Origin: Apostichopus japonicus
Lineage: Eukaryota; Echinodermata; Holothuroidea; Aspidochirotida; Stichopodidae
Length of the DNA stretch: 64,000 nucleotides
NCBI RefSeq assembly: GCF_037975245.1
Contig: NC_092570.1
Coordinates: 5,273,001 to 5,337,000 of the forward strand
Direction of reading: 5' to 3'
The first letter of the stretch is position 1. Every line of letters starts with the position of its first letter. Position numbers and translations under genes: made by a program. Below are positions 14,880-59,300 of the stretch, one piece after another. The notes below the pieces were generated by a model. That model was not told where the DNA came from. It saw only the letters and a list, made by a program, of their open reading frames with translations, and did not search any database.

Positions 14880-17727
14880 TTGAATATGTCGGGACGATTT
14901 GCTGTGACTATCTTACTGGTATTCGCAACGGTTGCTTATTGTGAAGTCAAGGGACAACAATCATTTAGGTCAGTATGTACTTTAACATCTCAAGCAGGTT
15001 ATAACATTATATCTCAAGCACAAGAGTTTAACATTGTCGATGAATTTGAAAAATTACCAAAAGTATAACATGTCGAGAAGAAAATAAAAAATATCGAAAG
15101 TTTGCAGTGTTTCGTCAAAACTTGTAACTGATATTAACCGGGGAAAAAAAACGGGGCCTGTTTTTGTTCTTTTGTCAAATGAAATACTATTTCCCTTATA
15201 CAGCCTTATAGTCACAATTTATTTTCAAAAATATCGAAAGGTTGCAGTTTTTGTCAAAACTAGTATAATATTAACCGAAAAAAAGCGGTGCCTGTTTTTG
15301 GCTTTCTTGTTTGTCAAATTAAATATTATTTCCCTTATAGAGTTTTAAAGTCACAATTTATTTTCAAAAATATCGAAAGGTTGCCGTTTTTGTCAAAACT
15401 TGTATAGTATTAACCGATAAAAGCGGGGTCTGTATAAAGTTATTGGCACCAATCTTGCGTGCACCTACTGCACCTAATATTATACCTAACCTTTAGCCTA
15501 AATATGCTTCAGAATGCAGTATTTCACGTCTAATTTTTTTTGTAGAGGGAGAGAACCCCTAGTGTAACCACCACCTGACCCTTACCACAATAGGAACCGT
15601 CTACCACGAACACAGTATCACTCCCCCTCCATTTTAAATCCTGGATCCGCCACTGTATAGTACTAAATTACAAACAAACAAATAAAACCTTAACTTGAAA
15701 TCGGCCTCGAATTTGATTAGTTTGACTCAAATTGCATGCAGTTCAGTTCGGCTATATACTTAAAATCAAGTGCTATCGTTAGTTAGCCACGTCATTTACT
15801 TAGTGTGAGATTAGATTCCCGTACTTCAATGAAGATAACATGTGTTGCTTCAATCTGCTCAGATTTTAATAATCTGGTTCCATTTTGGTCACTTTTTTGG
15901 TATTATTAGGGATTATTTTTCCTAATTTTTGATAGTTTGTATCCGCATATTTTATATAAATTTACTAATAAAACTACGTACGGGGTACCAAATGCAGAAA
16001 CAGCTACACTGTACCACTTCGTTGTAAAAAATAAATCAAACAATATATTTTGCGGAGTAATTTCTCATAGCTTACTTCAGTTACAATTCCATAGTTGTAA
16101 AGTGAGAAGTGTTAATAGATCAGAACTTATAGAAACCCATTTTCATAGTAGGCTAGAAATACTGGTATCAAAAGCATGCTTGCTACAATGTACTAATCTG
16201 GTTACATATGGCAGAGGAAAAATATCGGTTGAAAAACTCAAAATCATGAACGATTAAATTTTTAAAAAGTTACACTTTCGAATGGGCGTTTATTTTGGAA
16301 GCAATTGATGCAGTACGTCGTCAGTAGATACGCGGCACTGGACTATGTTTCATACGCAGTGACACATACGTCTGTGCATCAAACCCGCACTTGGATATGT
16401 TTATAACATACACAGGAACGGAATATATAGTGGCATATGCATCCCGGTACAAACAGACCAACATATACGGTGACACACCCGTCTATATATGCATGTTTCA
16501 AAATCTGTAGAGGGGTTGCGACATTTGGTGGAGAGAGATTGATGTTTTGAGCAAAAGACCATTTCCAATGTAAGACAAACTATTCATTCGATGTTAGTTT
16601 AGTTTAGTTTAGTAAATTAAACTAATCTTGAAAATCAGTCCTTAGGAACATAACCTTCAATCATCGTCAAATTTACTCAAAAACCAATGACAGTGGAACG
16701 CAGAAATAGTGTGTAAAAGTCTACGGATGGATTGAATCCGGTCCAGAAGTATTAGAAACATTTAGACGACGCAGCTCCTTTAAGACAACCTCATCCGAAA
16801 ATAAGACCGTATCCAGTGTAGGCCTATCACCCCCCCCCCCCCTGAAAATCTGGAATACTACTCATATCTTCCCTTGTAAAAACCGACACAAAATAGTTGT
16901 TCAAAAGATCTGAAAGATCCTGACTATCATTAACTATATTATCAGCCCGTGGAGCCCTAAGAGAAACAATTGTATCTTTTACTTTCTACTTTGACCTGAC
17001 ATAAGAAAAGAAGGCCTTTGGGTTATCCTTAATTTTTCGGGCAATGCTATTTTCGAAATTCAAGTAATATGCAAAATGCATTCTACCTTCAGCTGATGAA
17101 TTTTAAACTTGGCCAAAAGAGATTCAGATTTAGTCCTCCTAAACAACTTCCACATTCTACGTTTTTGCCTAATTGCACATCTAACTTTCTTATTCATCCA
17201 GTGAGGCATACTGCTTTTACGACGACGATTCTTCCACGGAACATGATTTTCCATGTTATCAACTTACATATTTTTTTTCTCCGTTTAGATGTTGGTGTGA
17301 GGTGTTCGATGCGAGAAAGACACCGATCCCGACAACAGTCACTCACAGAATGGTCTTGTACGAGATTGAAGATGATAGCCTAACATCAACAGATTGTCAG
17401 CAATTCTCGATCGAGTGTATGGATAAATGCACCAATAAATTGCAAGAGACATTCCACGCAACACAACTCGGAACCAGGCACGATCCTCGATTTCAGTTGG
17501 GTATATATCTCTGTAATCTCGCAGGAGTAGGAATTCCGGCCACCTCTCCCAGGCAAACCTTTCTACAGACCAAGGTTCCCGAATGTGAAGACGCGGGCAT
17601 TTTTAACTTCATTAAGTTGGGCGATCTATGTTGTTTCAAATGTATTAACGAGCAGAACGTGCTGGAGATTACATACAACCCGGATTGTGACCCGTATAAG
17701 TACCCAAAGGGTCGGTGTGACATATAA
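14880..17727 (+). CDS. Secreted cysteine-rich protein, unrecognised, 2 exons
   Basis: Exon 1 is 14880-14968 and exon 2 is 17289-17727 (TAA). The split AGA codon joins in frame to give 175 residues. The N-terminus is a clear signal peptide (MSGRFAVTILLVFATVAYC, cleavage probably near residues 21-26). The mature part has 12 cysteines at about 31, 33, 66, 73, 77, 105, 129, 144, 145, 148, 163 and 173, including a CWC start and a CCFKC motif; an even count suits six disulfides. The start could be codon 1 or the ATG two codons later. A polyadenylation signal AATAAA lies at 17829-17834. I do not recognise the family; an extracellular or secretory role is inferred from the signal peptide alone. The cysteine conservation, donor/acceptor fit and stop followed by AATAAA make it look like a real gene. 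Confidence 0.78.
15085..15432. repeat. Tandem repeat, period about 140 bp, 2.5 copies
   Basis: In the intron of the secreted-protein gene. AATATCGAAAG, TTTTGTCAAAACT, TATTAACCG and TATTTCCCTTATA recur in that order, with ATATCG at 15091, 15231 and 15370. Confidence 0.85.
15540..15655 (-). mobile_element. hAT-type terminal fragment
   Basis: Ends with CCTGGATCCGCCACTG near 15640-15655, which resembles the right terminus of the element ending at 13692 and follows a pyrimidine/C-rich stretch as in those elements. No matching left end was found, so it is called as a fragment only. Confidence 0.4.
16740..17262 (-). pseudogene. Decayed non-LTR retrotransposon (LINE) fragment
   Basis: On the minus strand, 17060-17254 encodes a basic stretch (HWMNKKVRCAIRQKRRMWKL) typical of the linker between the endonuclease and reverse transcriptase of CR1/Jockey-like LINEs. 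Further similarity continues in shifted frames to about 16740 (including a PSFLMSGQSRK segment), broken by stops and a C run near 16827. It ends about 30 bp before the acceptor of exon 2 of the secreted-protein gene. It cannot make a working protein. Confidence 0.65.
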
Positions 17728-34964: not shown

Positions 34965-37900
34965 TCAGGAACTCTCCGAGTACCAGTCCAACGATCGATC
35001 TACTGCTTTCTCCCAAGCTTTGATCGTTACCCTGTAGTCTTCTTTCAAAGATTCCGAGTGGAAAGTTGTATCGATTGTTCTCAAGTTCTTTATCTCTTCT
35101 CTGTCTTTCCAAATCCCTTTAAAAAAAATATTTAAAAAAAAGTAGACATGATAGGAATGTGAGTTGAGTATATCTGTCTAACTTTTCATCTATTGATTTG
35201 ATATGTGCAATATATAAACTGTGATACCATGACAACAGGTTTGGATTTGCAGACAACAAGACTTTGATGGATCTAACTCCTGTTCTTGTTCTCTGATATC
35301 TGTGGTGCAAGTGAAGGGCTTATTGTCTGGACCATATTATAACAATTTGCATATCAATAAGTAACAATGTTGCTCATTTGTTTCGAAGGTTTCTTTCTCT
35401 CTCTCTCTGTTCTCATGATCATTCAACTTGTTTGAAGTTAGCAGACAATTACATACCAACTGTTAATCCGGCCATGAATGCTGCCCCCAGACAGGACATT
35501 TGAAGATTTCTTGGTCTCTCGACTGGACATTCCAACAAACCTGATATGAGATTGCAGATGAAGCTATTTCTGCTCACTCCTCCATCAATGCTGTCAAGAA
35601 CAATAACGATAAAATCTGTGCTATCACCTGTAATGTAATTTGTTGTAAGTAGGTTGTAAAGTGTGGTTTTGCTTTTCACTCTTTGCTTCTACCAGTTCTA
35701 TGGTGCAGTGGATATTAAAGGGAGGTCCTGGTTCGATTCCCTGGTCGGAAAAAGTAACGTGGGTCTTTCATCCACAAGAATTTGGTGCTTTTTTTTACCA
35801 TCTTAAATGGTATTCAAAATTTTCAAAATCCAAAATGAGCTAAAGAACCTGTCAATTTAGATAGCCACCTGACATCAACTATTGTGACAAGCCATTCCAC
35901 TTCTCTCATGTGCACGAGTGGCTTCTTAGCTTATCAAACTATCTACCTTCGAGGCTGATTATTATTCTCAATATTGTTTAAACAGTGTTGTTGTTAAACA
36001 GATAACCAGTTGTAGATGGGTTAGACAGCATTTTTGTAGTTTTTTCAATGTTATTTTATGTGGTTCATGTATAATGATAATAATAATATTGAGGATTTAT
36101 AAAGCGCAGACATATCCACCTATAACGGTGCTCAAGGCCCATCACTACAATAATACCATGGTAACGATAACCTGTCAAACATAGAGCCAAATCCTCCTCT
36201 TGGCAGCAGCTAAACAGCGCCCAACTGACAGTTTTAACTCACAGGTCCCCATTTATACACCTGGGTGAAGAGAGGCAATGGAGATAAAGTGCCTTGCTCA
36301 AGGACACAACTTAATGATCTGGCCAGGAATCGAACCTGCAAGCTTTAGATCACATGTCCACCGACTGCCTTAACCACATGATGACAATGCACTAAACATA
36401 TATAACCCTACACTGTACTAACAGCTTGTTAGGATTCTCAGTGATAGTCAAAGTATACACTTCACTGCTGTGGCTAACTATAGAGGACATTTCTAAGAGG
36501 ACACAGCTTAAAGAGACATAACAAGGGGACATTTCTGATGTATTTTACTGCTGGTTTACTTCACTCACAGCTTCTATACATACTACACAGTAGCAGACTA
36601 ACCAGTACATTCTACTTTTGTGGTTTATCCTAATTGCTGAACTACGGTCCATGTGTATATACTACACTGTACCTATCGATCTACACGTAATTTTGTAAAT
36701 TAATCATAATCATAATCATAATAACTGTGGCTCGCACATCATAGATTTCTCAACGACAGTCAAAGCATACAATTTTTCTGTAATTATTTCTAACCACCTA
36801 AACTTTCATTTCCATCTCAACATTTAACCAGCTGCCGTAAATCACCAGACAGAACAAATATAAAAACTGATTGATAACCAAATCTGTCCTCTTGAACAGA
36901 AATGGCTCAGTAGGTGACGAACCAGAATAGCATGAGTGAGAGAGAGCACTGCAGGAGAAAAATTGTGCTCGGATACTTGAGACTACAGGTGCGAGTCCTT
37001 TATTTACTTCCTGAAGAGAATTAACCTGGGTTTGCTCGATGGATCTCAAGCAGGAACGGTAGCAGAAGGCTGCGATTACCTCCTCGGCTCTTCAAGGGGG
37101 CCACTCGGGAATACATGGTAGAATTGCAACATACCTAGCAACTATTAAAATGTGATGCTTCCATAAAGCCACATAATTCTAAATTCCACAATAGTTTCCT
37201 AAGAGTTTACCTTTTCATTTCTTTATTTAACGTTTACCATGTGACTCACCATATGATCTGTTTTACGACTGTGCGACACTTATCCAATCCAAGCTTGTGC
37301 AACTGAACGACCCTGCAAAGACATAATGACCAAATCTGACTAGTAGAGAGTTTATAATAACACACAGAAATGTCAAAACTGACTTAGAAATTATAAACAA
37401 GCTTGAAAAGAGCAATGAGATTTATGGCTAGAACAGGACACAAAACAAGTGACCTCATAGTTACAAGCCCTGCATTCTACCAAACTGAGCTATTCTCTGC
37501 TTGGAGCAGCAGCTAGGAGCAGAAACCACAGTACCTTGCGTTTCAAACTCAGTAAACCCACAAAAGAAGCAGGCATGGGATTTCATGAGAAAGTTCAAAC
37601 TTTTTATGTAATACATACATATAATTAAATGAACCACCTTACCCCTGACTGGGCAATTACAAACTTAAAAACAGCAAAAAGAAATTACAAGCTTGAACAA
37701 TTAAGCGACTTCCATATGCTTTATTTGTGCAAAGAAATTTTCATCCTTTAATATCATCCAAATAAAGAGGCATCATTAATAGCATCCAAATAAAGAGGCA
37801 TCTTTAATGACATCCAAATAAAGAGGCATCTTTAATAGCATCAAAAAGGGACATCTTAAATAGCATCCAAAAAAGAGGCGTCTTTAATAGCATCCAAATA

Positions 37901-40900
37901 AGAGGCATCTTTAATAGCATCCAAAAAAAGAGGCATGTCACCCATATAACACTGAAGCTATTATAGCTTATTACTAATCTGACCTGACAATTTCATTTTG
38001 CGCATGTGTGTGGTAGATAAATCACGGAATGGGTTATTAGCTCGACTCACCTAAAGGCAAGAGATTCTAACATACTTCTAACAATGTGACCTGGTTTTGT
38101 ATCCACTGTAACACCCAGAAGGGAGGCACAGGCCCCACCATTATTAATAGGACCCTGCGACAAAAAAAAAAGAAAACGAATGTTGGTATGCATAATTCAA
38201 ATCTGGATTTAAGATTTGACTATGTAAAATATTGCAAGAATCGAATAAAGTTGAAGTAGCAACTTTAGTGCAAAATTTTACAAGCCATCAGCAAATCTAC
38301 CAGTGTCATTGAAAATGAAAATTGAAAATGAAAAGAAAATCTGATAAAATCTGATCTTTAGGCTTATTAAACTATGGAAACATAACACACATATGTATTC
38401 CTTTACACAGAGCTGCAATATTTATATTCAAAGTGTTGACGTGCACCATGTTTGTAGAAAAACATTTGTATTCACCATTTTATTGACCATTGTTTTCTAT
38501 TATTGTATCACATCTATATGTTACAATTGGTTCAAGTTGAAGAAAAATAATATGTCATGACTATACTGGAATGAAAACAGTGATAATTCTGACTGTACAT
38601 CAATATCATGAAAATAGTCTAAGATGTTTCAGTGTTTGACGAATCAACAATGAACACCCTGATTCCCCCCTCTACCCCCACTATGAAGGTGGGGGTGATC
38701 ATGTGCAAGGATTCTCGAATATAAATTTAAACTTGATCTTTTAACGATGCCAGTTTTCTGTTTGCTACAAACATTCTCCTCCTTCGTGCCAAACCTCTCC
38801 TTCAAAACGAACCGGCTGATATAGCAGTAACTTCACAGAAAGCTGTGTCCACAAATTATGTCAAATATTTCACAACATGGTAATCAAATTCAAAGTGACA
38901 GAAGGCTATATGGAATTCCCTAAACTGATATGAAAATTTCACAGAGAACAAAGTCAAATCTTCTCACTTGAAGTCCTTGGAATGCAGGAACGAAACATAC
39001 ACCTCCACTGTTGGCTACTGATTCAGCTACGGGAGCACTCTGACTAGGATCATCGTAGAACCCTGAGGGATGAGAGGAATCAATAAATCAGGTCTTGTTT
39101 CCATCTTAATCAAAAAGATATTCTTCTTGGGGGGAGGGAAAGGGGGGTGGGAAAAGTGGGTGGCTTCACTTCTAATGATTGTTGTTGCAACCTCTTTACC
39201 AATATTCCCTCCAATCACAGCTTTATAATTTACCCATTTTCACTCCATTCAACCAGTGCTTATAGTTGCATTGCTACAATTCATGAGGTATGTAACCGCA
39301 CTGCCAATATTCACTCCAATCAAACCTCCATACTTACCCATTTCACTCCCCATTCAACCACAGTGCTTATATTTGCATTGCTACCTTACATGAGGTATGT
39401 AACCGCACTGCCAATATTCACTCCAATCAAATCTCCATACTCACCCCTTTTTCACTCCCCATTCAACCACAGTGCTTATATTTGCAATGCTACATTTCAT
39501 GAGGTATATAACCGCACTGCCAATATTCACTCCAATCAAACCTCCATACTTACCCATTTTCACTCCCCATTCGACCACAGTGCTTATATTCGCATTGCTA
39601 CATTACATGAGGTATATAACCGCACTGCCAATATTAACTCCAATCAAACCTCCATACTTACCCATTTTAACTCCCCATTCGACCACAGTGCTTATATTCG
39701 CATTGCTACATTACATGAGGTATATAACCGCACTGCCAATATTAACTCCAATCAAACCTCCATACTCACCCATTTTCACTCCCCATTCAACCACAGTGCC
39801 CGTATCTGCATCATTGCATTCCATGATATAGGTCATCTCATTACCAATTTGCCAGCCGACCAAAGGATATGCACCTTGACAGGAAGAGACGAATTCTTAC
39901 ATAATAGCTGGATCTTACATTCTTTGCTTCTGAAGTCGATCACAACAAAGATTGTTACATCTTTTGTGAATATGGTTGCCCGATCATGCAGTAATTATAG
40001 GTAACAGAGAGTAGCTGTAATCTAACTGTAACACAAAACTATTTGGAATAGCTAACACAACAATAGCTAACACGACAATAGCTAACATGACAATAGCTAA
40101 CATGACAAAAGCTAACACAACAATAGCTAACACAACAAAAGCTAACACAACAATAGCTAACACAACAATAGCAAACACAACAATAGCTAACATGACAAAC
40201 TAACAACATACATTGTTGCTGACATATCGAAAGTAGCTTAATATATATTGCAATGACATCACCAGCAACTTGGCACTTGAAATAAAGCTATTTCTTGATT
40301 TAACATAACTAAAGATGTTTATTTTCTGGGATAAACAGGAACAGTTTTCTTTGCAAACGGCATATGATTGTATTCATGAAAGACGTTCTCACATGAAATT
40401 AATAGAATGCCACCAGTCACTTTAAGTAGAGGCTTACAATAAATAAAACACAGTCACATCTTTGTACATTCTTTGGAATGGTCTACCTCAAAGTTTACTA
40501 ATGTAATTGCATATCCAAGAGATACTTCAAGCTCCTTAATACGGCTGCAAGCCATGCGAAAAGTCAGATGTCAACTAGTGCCAGGTATACAAAACTATAT
40601 AGATCCGTACAAGTACTTAAATAGTAGATCTCAGTCTGTTTATTCAGTCACGTTCTATTTATTGTACTAGGCGTATCATCCATGGGAAGCCAAACAGACA
40701 AATAATGTAGCACCTTGCTCATGCGATGACTTACCATCATACGGCACAGTTGGTCTTGGCCCTGTGTTTATTACTAGAAATGATCCAGTCCCCATGGTAA
40801 GCTTGATGTCACCCTCATTGAAACAGCATTGACCAAACATGGCAGCTTGTTGGTCAGCAATCTAGATATAAAAATGGAAAAAAAATGAAAATTGTCTTTA

Positions 40901-44730: not shown

Positions 44731-47700
44731 TATACATATATGTCAGTACAGCTAAATACAAATCTTGTGACTTACTAATTAACCTTTACCCAATTAATTA
44801 CAAAGATAACTACCAAGATAGAGGCAATTAATTCACATCTCTGTGATAAAGTGCTTTATGGTAAAGAAGGTTAAAGGAGTGATCTTTGAACCTTGAGGAA
44901 TAACAATGCAAAAACAAACGACTTTGTTTACGAAAGCCTGGTTCTCTACAATTGAATAGTCCAAGAGACTTTTAAATAAATACTCACAGAGTATGTGTGC
45001 TGTCAATACATGATTTTATTATATTTGACGTTTTTGTATACATGTCTATGTAACTGAACAACTCCCTCCCCTCCCATCACCCTTACCCCTTCAGGCAGGT
45101 GAAGCAGATCCAATGACCATCATTGGTCCATGTAATGGAGGTATTTGTGGTGAAAACCTCACATTCTACCCTTCCTCCCCCATCAGAGACAAACCAAACC
45201 AACATCATTGGTCCTTTGATGAACAACTGCTCCTCCCCCCTCAGCCAACCACACCCCCCCCCTCCTCACCTCGACAGAAAAAGCAAATGTTACCAGCAAA
45301 ATCAGTCTATGTGACAGAGATTCTAACTTACGTTAAAATTCTTCAGCCTATAAAATTGAAATAAGTTGAGCTACTTAACTCAAGTAAATGAGTCTTTCCT
45401 TCATAATTACATCATATCTTTGTAAGCATGGGTTTTGATGTTTTATTGTTATGTCAATGACAAGTTTTCAATCAATGGCCATGCCCATATTGAAACAGAT
45501 AGCTGACAAATGGCTCTCTCTTAGGTGGAGGAGAGGTGCCTGGAGTGAATATATTCAACAGCACATGGATGTGAAATGGTAGGATCAACCACAACTAAAA
45601 ATACCTACATGCTGACTTGTAAACTTGAAGAAATGGTAGGGTCAACCATGACTAAAAATACTTACATGCTGACTTGTGAACTTGAAGACACTGGCCGTCT
45701 CCCACCTCCTGCTTCCACAACTTAATCCGTAGAGAAGTGTGGCCCCCGTTCGAAGACCCTGATAGAGGGGGATAGACCAGATCATTAAATATCCCCTGTT
45801 TATGATGCAACTGCTTCAATACCTTACAATTACAAATTTTCAGAGCAATGAATAACATGTATGGCAGATCACTTTCAAACCACAGAGTATTACACCCAAT
45901 GCTGCCAATTTTCCCCCTCCCATTGGTCATCTCAATATGTCTCCAGGTCATTGTACATCTAAAAATTAACCATTAAAGTAGCATTTTGAATCCCCTATAA
46001 ACTCCTTACCATAAATGACCAAGAGTTGTTAATGCTGTCTGCTCTTTTCACTGATCGGGTATCGTTCCAGCAGATGAAATTGTGATAAGATTTACCAGTT
46101 TTTCTGTGGTAGAGACATATGGTTGATATATTTTAAATACTAAAAAATGTTCTCCTTTCTCCAACAAAGAGATCATTTACATCCTGTTTTCTTCCACCCC
46201 ATTAAGCACATATGGATTTTAATATTAAACCTGTACGAGGAGTCCTTCAAAGACTGAGTGCAAAATAAACCACACCAAAAATGACTCATATTGTCAGTAT
46301 AAAATTCATGACAACACACCTATTTTGCTTCAAGTTGATTTACGAACATTTTCTGCTATTAATATCTATGTAAGAATTGAATACAAATTGTTCTTGGGAT
46401 GTCAATTTAGGTAAGGATGATAGAATTTGTCCTTCATGTGTCTTCTTCAAAGCTTGAGCCCTTCCCTATTGCTTAACACACTAAGAGACGTACTTTGAGC
46501 AATGGATTTTTTTTCCATTTTATCGTTAATTGACATCTTTAACTACTGCTGAAATAGTATCAAATGGGGGAAGTAACATATAAATAAACAGACAAATTAA
46601 TAGGAAATATAATTTACAAAGTAAGTTTGCAAGCGGGAAGAAGTAATTGCCTAGTTATAATGCAAAATGCACAATATCTATGAATGCAAACTTACTTGTT
46701 CCAAGTAGTAAAAGTAGCTCTTTGTGTTGAGAGACCTAGGGCAGTGATATCAGAGGGTGCTACACCTGAATCTAAATGCCAAACATGAGATAGAAACATG
46801 AGATTCATAGTAGATAGAGCCAGAGAAAGCTATAAGGTATTGAATCTTCACGATAACAAATCAACAGTTAACACATGATATACCAAGGTCTCTTACACTG
46901 AGAGAGCATTGTGGTCAAGTGGTTAAGCCAGTGGACTTGTGATCTAAGGCTTACAGGTTCGAGTCCTGGCCTGATTTGTTGTGGTCAAGTGGTTAAGGCA
47001 GTTGGTGGACTTGTGATGCTTGCAGGTTCCAGTCCTGGCCAGATCATTGTGTTGTATCCTTGGGCAAGGCACTTTATCTCCATTGCCTCTCTTCACCCCA
47101 GGTGTATAAATGGAGACCTGTGAGATAAAACTGTCAGCTGGGCACTGTTTCACTGCTACCATGTGGAGGGATTGTCTCTATGTTTGACAGGTTATCGTGG
47201 ACCAGGGTAATATTGTGATGCGCCTTGAGCACCGTTATAGGTGGATATGTCTGCGCTTTTGTAATCCTCATTATTACTTTTACACTGAGGAGGAAGTCAA
47301 TGGGGTCATAGTCCCCAACAATTTTTAACAGCAATGATTTTCATGTTGGCATGGTGGTGCACTGGTGGCATTTATACCACCAATTTAAATTAGTCTGAAT
47401 ACTGCCCCCCCCCCGGCCCCAGCTCACCTTCCCTTGCAATCCCCTATCTCTAATCTGTGTAGTGTTCCATGTGTATAACACTGGAAAAAGTCATGAAGTA
47501 GCTACTTAGATTCCCTTTTTTTTGTCCCTTACAGCATCAAAAGGAAAAACAAAATGGATAAAGAAACTTTGTCTTGCGGTATAAATTAACAATCTGTGTT
47601 AGGTTTCATAAATGAATCATACCAGACGTATCCTTAAGGTACTACTGTTCAATTTATCTACTTAAAAAACACAAAATCACCACATAACAGATTAATAACA

Positions 47701-56300: not shown

Positions 56301-59300
56301 GCGAAATTTCAAGCAAATAGGGAAGATGACCTAAGAAGAAAGAAAAAAATCATTTCTGAAGTTCCTCTTCACTAATACATTATTGCTACTATATGCAGGG
56401 ACAAATATATATAACAAAAAAATATTTTTGCCAATACTCTACCTCTCATTGCTATCATGTTCTAATTAGTAATTATCAGACATTTGCATGTCTTAGTACA
56501 TTAGTCTCAAGTCTAAGGTATACCCATGTGGAAAATGAACTTATTATTAAAGTATAAAAAGTGTAGCACAGAGATTGTAGAAAAGTGGTGTTGGGGGGGG
56601 GGGGGGGGAGGGGGTGGAGCCTGTAAAATCAAGGACCTTGAATTTACCACAATATAACATACTGTACTTTAAATTGTAATGTACATACTACTACTTACTG
56701 TTGCTTTTCTTAATCCTACAGTGAAATGATGTATGAAGATGAAAAGTTTGAACAGAGAGAAATAGCTGCCTTGGTCGCCTCTAAGGTGTACTATCACTTG
56801 GGAGCCTTTGAAGAGTCTGTAGCGTATGCTCTAGGTGCAGGGAGTCTATTCGACGTCAACAGTAAATCGGAATACGTCTCAACTATTATAGGTAAGTCTG
56901 CATGGTAGCAAAGTGTCGGACGTCCCATCATCACGACTGTTGGTTTCATATCTTGCGTAATATATCTCTTTATCAATGCCCCCGAAATTCAGGCTATTTG
57001 CTGGCTTAAATGTAAATGGAATTAACCGTTTGCTATTGAAGGGGGGGGGAGGCACTTGTGTTTCTCGGCCAGCAAACATTAAATAATTACAGCAGTTAAA
57101 TAATTACATGATTTCCATATCAAACAAAAGCCCAGTATTACAACTTATTTATCAGTAATATTACTGGGTTGCTCCCATAAGAAAATGGAACAACTGATGT
57201 GTGCAGGAAAATGAAAAAGGTGGGAATTTATTTTGAGATTTTAGCTAAATTTTTGAAATTCTGGGCCTGTTGGTCTTTAAGATTCCTCTCCTTAGAGGTT
57301 AACATGAACACTAATGATTGGTTCGTCTTTTCCTTCGTATCCAGCCAAATGTATCGACCAATACACGAAACTCAAGGTGCACAACTACGAGCACCAAGAT
57401 GAACCCAAAGAGATTGACCCAAGGTTAGAGGCTGTTGTGAATAGGATGTTCAAGAGATGCTTTGACGACAAGAAATTCAAGCAAGCCGTCGGTATCGCCT
57501 TGGAAACCAGACGCCTGGATGTTTTCAAGGAAGCTATCCTCAAGTCTGCTGATATTCCTACTATGCTTTCATACAGTGTGAAAGTTGTGATGTCACTTCT
57601 ACAGGAGAGACAGTTTGGGAATACGGTAAGTCAAACAACCAACTATCTGTTTTGTTTCATACCTGTTATTGCTAGTTATAAACAAGCCGCTTGGTTGCGG
57701 GCAATAATTTTAGTGTTGACGTTTTGTGTGGCAGTTTTCAGGCGTATGAATAATATTTCTCATAAAATAAACTACTGAACTTTAACAGTATACTTCAGTG
57801 TACAAAAAGTGCTACATGTATATATTTTCATTGGTGTAGTATTACGCTAATAGCATTTTTGCTTGATGCAAATACCCTTTTTACAATGACATAGCATCCA
57901 GCAGTAAAATTATGATGCTATGATGTCATGACCATAAGGCCCAGTCACATCTCACCGGATTGCACGAACGGACAAGAGTACGCACGAAAAACAGTTATCC
58001 GGTTATTTCCGTTGGCAAAATTTGTCGCGCATGCATCTGGGGGTTGCAACGTACCGGACGTTCAACGGTGAAAACGGATTACAAACGTACAAGGGACGGA
58101 CAGCAACGGACGAACAACGGATGAACAACGGAATAACAACGAACGAACTAACGAACACCAACGGATAGTAACGAATTTACAACGGACAATTAACGGATAA
58201 AGAACATACAAAACGTAGGAGTACCGGAAAAGTAACGGACATACCGGACTAGCAACGGAGAAGTAACGGTCTAAAACCTTGGCCTCCGGAGTGCCTCAAA
58301 ATCAGGGGGCATCCTCATGAAATTGATGAAAGATTTTGGTCTTCCATTCGCAGCTCCTGCATTAGTTTATCATAAAGACCACCCTGCCGTCTTCTCTGTG
58401 AACCTAACAAGGCCCTAGACCAGCATTTAAGCCGAGCACGTCTCTTCCTTCTCTTCTTGACTTGTTCATTGGTCTTGATGTTGGCTTCAATGATAAGCAT
58501 CTGTGCTTGTAGCTGACACTGTGGTCTAAAGCTTGAAACTTTCTGAAGGGTCCATGCATGATGTAGGTGTTGACGGTAGAGGTAATGGGAGCAGAATGAG
58601 GCGTGGGACGCTTGGAGTGGACAAGGTGGAGGAGGTACGCTGCATCTCCGTTCTATGTCCGTCTGTTATACTTTCCTAGCCTGAGTTCTTCCGTTTCTTC
58701 CGTGTAACGTCCGTTACCTATTCGTTCATTGTCAGTTCTATTCCTTTACACTTCCGTTATTTCTACGTTAGCGTCCGTCGAATATACGGTATAGGTACTG
58801 TACTTCTACGTTTCATCCGTTCTTTGTCCGTTCATGATCCGGTGAGCAATAGCAATAACCAGAGACGAACGGAGAAATACAGTATGCCAAACGCATACAG
58901 AACGAACAAAACGCATGAGAAACTGATAAAACGGAAGCTTAACGGATTAGTAACGAATAAATAACGGAGACATTTTTCGGTGGATGTCCGTTCCAAGTTT
59001 TATGCATGTTCAAAATCGACACCGGACAAACCGGACCCTCCCGGTAATGAAACGTAGATGGACGGAGGAGAACCGCATACTAAACGGATACTAACGTACA
59101 TCAACGGAGAGCCATTTTTTGTCTTCGTTCCCTCTCCGTTATTGCAATCCGGTGAAATGTGACTGGGCTTTTACTTTGGTAGTGTGGCATTTCTCTATCA
59201 TGGTATTGTATGCAGTGTTTTACCATAGTGACGTTACAAACCTACTTTGGTAGTTTTTGAATTTCTCAATCAAGGTATCATATGCAGAAGCCTGAGACAT

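Follow-up and report, generated by a model that had tools for sequence, protein, structure and literature searches.

Most of intron 12 of the GK5 gene of the sea cucumber Apostichopus japonicus is made up of tandem units that resemble the preceding exon and repeat its splice donor at their junctions. In our judgement the array is, with a probability of about 0.8, a tolerated minisatellite lying across the exon 12-intron 12 boundary, of the kind called a 'mirage' in lancelet genes, for which no function needs to be invoked. This reading draws together the register of the units, their lengths, the homology of their 5' part to the exon, the mosaic of sequence distances, the decay at the edge of the array and the occurrence of the same structure elsewhere in the genome.

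Position, register and homology of the array

The window, a stretch of 64,000 nt (C10:5273001-5337000) of a 671.6-Mb genome in 35 contigs, carries on its minus strand, from about 51.15 to 34.97 kb, the gene which we take to be GK5. Both this name and the placement of the exons rest on comparison with the human GK5 sequence, and all exons sought in this way were placed except exon 9. The joined gene prediction matches Pfam FGGY_N (1.7e-31) and FGGY_C (3e-20). The features at issue are the following:

39770..39874, minus strand: exon 12 of GK5, 105 nt long and in phase 1-1; the 5' edge of the array is made up of its final 30 nt (39770-39799)
39662..39769, minus strand: unit u1; 108 nt; opens with the exon 12 donor GTGAGTATGG; in-frame TAA
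39554..39661, minus strand: unit u2; 108 nt; 98% identity with u1; donor GTAAGT; TAA
39445..39553, minus strand: unit u3; 109 nt; donor GTAAGT; AAA where TAA stands elsewhere
39338..39444, minus strand: unit u4; 107 nt; donor GTGAGT; TAA
39234..39337, minus strand: unit u5; 104 nt; donor GTAAGT; AAT where TAA stands elsewhere; two 2-nt deletions
39166..39233, minus strand: decayed edge unit; weak donor GTAAAT
39063..39769, minus strand: intron 12; 707 nt; 3' end ...catccctcag

Exon 12 is entered at ...cctgtcaag|GTGCATAT and left at AAAATGG|GTGAGTATGG. It passes without a gap into the five full units (39769-39234; 104-109 nt) and from these into the decayed edge unit, the first unit beginning exactly at the exon 12 donor and the partial one starting at 39233. 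TRF finds a tandem repeat at 39199-39799 with a period of 108, 5.6 copies and 92% matches, and units and edge unit together (39769-39166, 604 nt) account for about 85% of the intron. The first-pass annotation of this DNA had described exon 12 as followed head to tail by five full copies and one partial copy of about 108 bp, with its 5' splice site aligned to the start of the next copy, and both statements are borne out by the unit coordinates and the TRF period. The first 35 nt of the edge unit are clearly similar to u5 (none of 5000 shuffles reaches the score) and the remainder only weakly so (309/5000).

The resemblance between units and exon extends well beyond the shared exon end. Whole exon 12 aligns with the units at z scores of 8.0-10.4 (1000 dinucleotide shuffles per unit), and its first 67 nt alone give scores against u1-u5 that are reached by 0, 1, 0, 0 and 0 of 2000 shuffles; none of the 126,138 places in the window outside 39100-39960, on both strands, attains the unit scores (best 8; units 9-13). 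At the protein level, where the first-pass annotation had claimed a clear alignment, the alignment of the first 26 translated residues scores 42-52, where shuffles average -0.3 to 1.5, and 0/5000 shuffles reach the score for each of the four units tested (u1, u3, u4 and u5). The units align to exon 12 far better than shuffled sequence does, and the array is real; the comparisons support an origin of the units in exon 12, whose splice donor recurs where one unit meets the next.

The source appears to lie at this locus. A six-frame protein search of the whole genome with GK5 exons 11-14 matched the window locus only, which argues against a GK5 paralogue as the source of the units, and recovered three of the units as diverged exon 12 copies (E 1.6e-4, 1.8e-4 and 0.008); a DNA search of the genome found the array DNA at one place only. 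A genome search with Pfam FGGY_N gave four matches, on C2, C12 and C15, and missed the short exons of GK5 itself, so that it is less than a full test for paralogues. One of its matches, 600 nt at C15:26230772-26231371 (L018), lies in a single frame with one TAA and may be either a processed pseudogene of a kinase or a gene without introns.

The array is also crossed on the plus strand by open frames, one a 305-aa antisense stop-to-stop frame at 39087-40004 and a second open over 39403-39831, which most likely arise because the period is close to a multiple of three. Two further minisatellites lie in GK5 introns: that at 40047-40192, before exon 12, holds 9.7 copies of 15 bp, and that at 37746-37936, downstream of exon 14, holds 7.0 copies of 28 bp.

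A mosaic exon and the order of events

Exon 12 is a mosaic in its relation to the units. Its last 30 nt are identical to the unit consensus at 30/30 positions, as against 45/75 (60%) for the first 75 nt, and the break at exon nucleotide 75 is sharp (changepoint reached in 0/5000 permutations). Expressed as K2P distance, exon and unit consensus differ by 0.60 over the 75 nt and show no differences in the last 30 nt; among the units the mean distance is 0.063, with 0.019 between u1 and u2. Because of this mosaic and the gap between the K2P values, we infer that an old whole-exon copy came first and that amplification followed much later, of a segment that comprised this copy together with the donor and the exon end. 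The earlier suggestion that the whole exon had been amplified thus holds in that the units stem from exon 12, and fails in that a single event does not suffice: at least two steps would be needed to explain a distance of 0.60 over 75 nt beside a mean of 0.063.

The order of events, read from one sequence, may have been as follows. Long ago a head-to-tail duplication of exon 12 would have occurred, with slippage or unequal exchange as its probable cause, and the exon start (GTGCATAT), which is similar to the donor (GTGAGTAT), may have favoured it. The old copy, lying downstream of the first donor, would have become intron and lost its constraint; much later, in-register unequal exchange would have amplified a 108-bp segment that included the exon end, giving the five units now present. 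Trees group u1 with u2 (support 88 and 0.954) and place the exon and the edge unit on long branches. Alignment columns 25, 70 and 88 split u1-u2 from u3-u5, and since exon 12 sides with u3-u5 at all three, the youngest duplication seems to be the one that adjoins the exon, its changes not having been passed on to the exon. The array, beside its source exon, presents exon sequence on its way to becoming intron in a gene that presumably keeps working.

A coding past or present of the copies would account for some of these features. The copies would then be, or once have been, alternative exons or a translated in-frame lengthening of exon 12, as might be suggested by the phase 1-1 exon, the unit length near 108, the single 3-nt indel relative to the exon, and a protein likeness that exceeds a neutral simulation at the nominal 5% level in three of five sequences. 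In this simulation the BLOSUM score gives P values of 0.008 for u5, 0.023 for u1, 0.037 for u3, 0.069 for the consensus and 0.127 for u4, the sequences not being independent of each other, and identical residues alone give P values of 0.09-0.36, none of them past the nominal 5%; the excess could reflect constraint on the exon's own lineage as well as a coding past of the copy. We nevertheless regard a coding role as improbable. An in-frame TAA, which the first-pass annotation had ascribed to the copies at large, is found in three of the five (u1, u2 and u4) and is replaced by AAA in u3 and AAT in u5; the far units are 109, 107 and 104 nt long; the unit starts have no acceptor-like site; and differences are spread evenly over the codon positions (8/6/9 of 20/20/19; P 0.54).

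Splice signals within the array

The sequence GT(A/G)AGTATGG, described earlier as present at most junctions, recurs at five of the six, the sixth reading GTAAATTATA. In predicted pairing with the 5' end of U1, the exon 12 donor reaches -12.3 kcal/mol, the donors at the u1/u2, u2/u3, u3/u4 and u4/u5 junctions -12.2 to -12.3 and the last donor, that of the edge unit, -6.5. The five strong donors all surpass the 12 other donors of GK5 for which a value was obtained (-4.6 to -11.1 kcal/mol; the search pattern did not pick up the exon 15 donor). Counting matches to the consensus, however, does not set the five apart, at 7/9 compared with 6 to 8 for the other donors of the gene.

The acceptor side is different. 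The first-pass annotation had placed an AG before GTTTGATTGG in each copy and had offered poison exons, donor decoys and neutral leftovers as possible roles. Such an AG stands in four of the five full units, u4 having GAGATTTGATTGG, and at these four sites AG|GTTTGATTGG is preceded by 4-5 pyrimidines in 19 bases, compared with 12 at the exon 12 acceptor and 15 at that of exon 13. Cassette poison exons entered at AG|GTTTGATTGG were accordingly rejected for want of a pyrimidine tract, and poison exons of the kind first proposed are unlikely. Two other AGs per unit (ttggcag|TGCG; tgtag|CAAT or tag|CATT) are preceded, at the sites listed, by 9-10 pyrimidines in 19 bases, and the pieces bounded by them, in u1 of 71 and 44 nt, would disturb the frame; a weak frame-shifting cassette may arise through these. 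Judged by such signals, the array donors are credible and the acceptors first proposed are not, and an accident in which exon 12 is extended to a later donor is more plausible than a cassette poison exon. Intron 12 also contains, at 39123-39160 on the minus strand, a C/T-rich tract ending in AAG|AAG, a possible decoy acceptor with 18/19 pyrimidines, compared with 15/19 at the exon 13 acceptor.

Exon definition and the order of transcription lead one to expect that the first donor is preferred; classic tests with duplicated donors reportedly show that position effects can also go the opposite way. In the tolerated array that we favour, the spliceosome would use the first donor and remove the remainder as intron, while splicing from a later donor would bring a stop codon into the mRNA and lead to its decay, as any extension of exon 12 to a later donor reads the in-frame TAA of unit 1 first. 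These splicing effects, the sole use of the first donor among them, are predictions. That the same arrangement has been put to regulatory use, with some transcripts taking a downstream donor, gaining the TAA of unit 1 and being degraded, so that copy number tunes GK5 output, strikes us as quite unlikely. The five near-equal donors pair well with U1, every lengthening crosses that TAA, and downstream repeat units act as donors in human IFI6 (PMC4526556). Chance alone, however, gives stops in intron sequence, and lancelet mirages with splice signals are described as harmless to splicing (PMC3087553; PMC3902484). Of the roles first offered, the neutral leftover is the likeliest.

Boundary arrays in other genes and other animals

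Tandem repeats over exon-intron boundaries are known from lancelet genes, where they are called 'mirages', in Adh3, troponin C, the globins BflGb6 and BflGb9, and PGBD5 (PMC3087553; PMC3902484). The globin repeats measure 150-160 and 157 bp (PMC3087553), and PGBD5 holds arrays of 60 and 108 bp in one gene (PMC3902484). The GK5 array shares with these its minisatellite-like repeats across a boundary, the TRF repeat including the last 30 nt of exon 12 and the donor; splice signals within the units, with five donors at -12.2/-12.3 kcal/mol and one at -6.5; and concerted turnover that leaves out the edge unit, which has decayed while the full units stay close (u1-u2 0.019, mean 0.063), homogenisation that skips edge units having been reported for lancelets as well (PMC3087553). 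It differs in belonging to an echinoderm, in a unit that has whole-exon length and register with an old 5' part, and in its side, the lancelet arrays lying at both exon ends and the five seen in the sea cucumber at donors only. Splicing and length variation were studied in lancelets, where the authors suggest regular splicing for the globin and Adh3 mirages (PMC3087553; PMC3902484), whereas the GK5 array is known from the sequence of one assembly. Tandem or mutually exclusive exons fit less well: instead of an acceptor and an intron of its own for each copy, the units abut, with 4-5/19 pyrimidines before AG|GTTTGATTGG, and the frame is broken by TAA in three of five units and by lengths of 109, 107 and 104.

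Turri et al. reportedly described in 1995 a minisatellite with multiple splice donors in human IFI6 (6-16). As in GK5, several donors there stem from a tandem repeat at an exon end; in IFI6, however, the downstream repeats are used and give isoforms (PMC4526556), while in GK5 downstream use would meet a stop. Human internal tandem repeats at exon-intron boundaries likewise show minisatellite expansion altering exon or intron, and their authors propose novel introns through cryptic splice sites; these repeats differ in lying in recent paralogues within segmental duplications, many of which keep the repeat in an alternative transcript (PMC2812944). The 31-bp VNTR of human CBS (c.1444_1467+7) has unit coordinates that span the end of a coding exon and the first intron bases, as does the GK5 unit, but the unit is short, present in 16-21 copies and variable among people (PMC2630376). 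In a potato RdRp gene, a tandem duplication over an exon-intron boundary has turned exon sequence into intron, as in GK5; there, as in Rogers-type intron gain, a new intron arises (PMC4974935), whereas in GK5 an existing intron, the one that separates exons 12 and 13 and has its position outside the copies, grew and the exon ends were kept. The earlier remark that such a case is rarely seen was too strong in the face of the lancelet mirages (PMC3087553; PMC3902484) and the human examples (PMC2812944). No echinoderm mirage appeared in the titles and abstract starts of the open-licence papers searched. As far as literature searches tell, this kind of boundary minisatellite is known, and GK5 provides a case in another phylum that is peculiar in its whole-exon register.

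GK5 itself holds a second, smaller structure of this sort at exon 5, where a stop codon precedes the second donor (45573-45688):

45630..45686, minus strand: 57-bp duplication, copy 1; last 21 nt of GK5 exon 5 and donor GTAAGT (donor at 45665)
45573..45629, minus strand: 57-bp duplication, copy 2; 52/57 identical; donor GTAGGT

Two donor-crossing arrays in one gene are no commoner than random placement would give (P 0.21 with 6 arrays, 0.30 with 8), and a special attraction of arrays to GK5 donors was discarded on these values.

A survey of the genome took the exon matches of three Pfam families and covered 79 of their 80 (57 TCP1, one of them not covered, 4 FGGY_N and 19 ABC, the last being 19 scored of 195 first-look candidates), with ends taken from the domain matches and not from annotated exons, and with TRF arrays of period >=10 counted within 20 nt of a match end. 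An array lies near the match end in 4/79, in all four at the 3' end, and in 0/79 at the 5' end. Exon end and donor are inside the array in three of the four, the fourth (C1:11008611) merely abutting; all three are among the 56 TCP1 matches, with 0/23 in FGGY_N and ABC. A smaller set of 34 of the loci, examined first, had yielded two. Of 21,348 points in introns or flanks, 2881 (13.5%) fall within an array or close to one, compared with 4/79 here, so that exon ends are poorer in arrays than introns. The three arrays are:

C21:16416611: TCP1-family array; 121 bp, 7.1 copies; 58-nt exon end at 55-56/58 in six further copies; native donor GTATCA repeated
C21:16417768: TCP1-family array; 46 bp, 11.8 copies; 11 identical donors including the native one
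C17:161699: TCP1-family array; 31 bp, 38.5 copies; native donor GTAAGT (-10.7) stronger than GTAGTA (-6.0) in the 13 copies printed

The two on C21 belong to one TCP1-family gene (C21:16416268-16419513, L024), at successive exon matches, and at the third locus (C17:160199-163432, L028) a TCP1-family exon is followed by the 31-bp x 38.5 array with exon end and weakened donor.

These arrays, like the exon 5 duplication, copy no more of the exon than its end, which, together with the sharp break at exon nucleotide 75 and the 60% identity of the first 75 nt, might suggest that at exon 12 too only exon end and donor were duplicated and that the rest of the unit resembles exon 12 by chance. This account is very unlikely. 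With the five units taken together, the 5' part of the exon beats 9,999/10,000 shuffles, and it also beats each of the 126,138 window positions tested elsewhere; 0/5000 shuffles reach the protein score for each of four units; and a resemblance to human GK5 is seen in the units as well, its score being reached by 3 to 24 of 5000 shuffles.

With GK5 exons 12 and 5 included, 5/5 boundary arrays, in three genes, are on the donor side, for which equal and independent odds give 1 in 16 two-sided; a donor-side bias is therefore only suggestive. Such a bias may arise because an additional acceptor ahead of an exon is more disruptive than an additional donor behind it. A wider proposition, which we consider possible but doubtful, is that boundary minisatellites, far from being peculiar to lancelets, are recurrent in the genes of echinoderms (sea cucumbers) and polar, the exon end and donor being copied downstream and the intron end and exon start almost never, so that exons would steadily feed their own introns and identical donors compete serially, with the first winning. 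Were this true genome-wide in a sea cucumber, mirages would extend beyond chordates, to which the lancelet and comparable human cases in the papers found belong, and the one-sidedness would tell which boundary duplications selection tolerates. Genes with near-identical donors in series are natural experiments on the choice of the spliceosome among equal sites. Boundary arrays also matter for annotation: the one in lancelet PGBD5 gave rise to an exon prediction that lacks support from transcripts (PMC3902484).

Elsewhere in the window, open frames at 2266-2850 and 17185-17727 are without a Pfam match, and a neighbouring gene encodes the proteasome subunit RPN2/PSMD1 (57308-57778; RPN2_N, 2.9e-23). 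On the mitochondrial contig C35 (16,099 bases, 9,900 of them covered), COX1 translates well with the echinoderm mitochondrial code, and table 14 gives the same reading apart from TAA. On another contig, C29:14745-31219 contains COX1 in pieces of shifting frame with a second partial copy 15 kb off, representing either mitochondrial DNA copied into the nucleus or a mitochondrial contig with faults.
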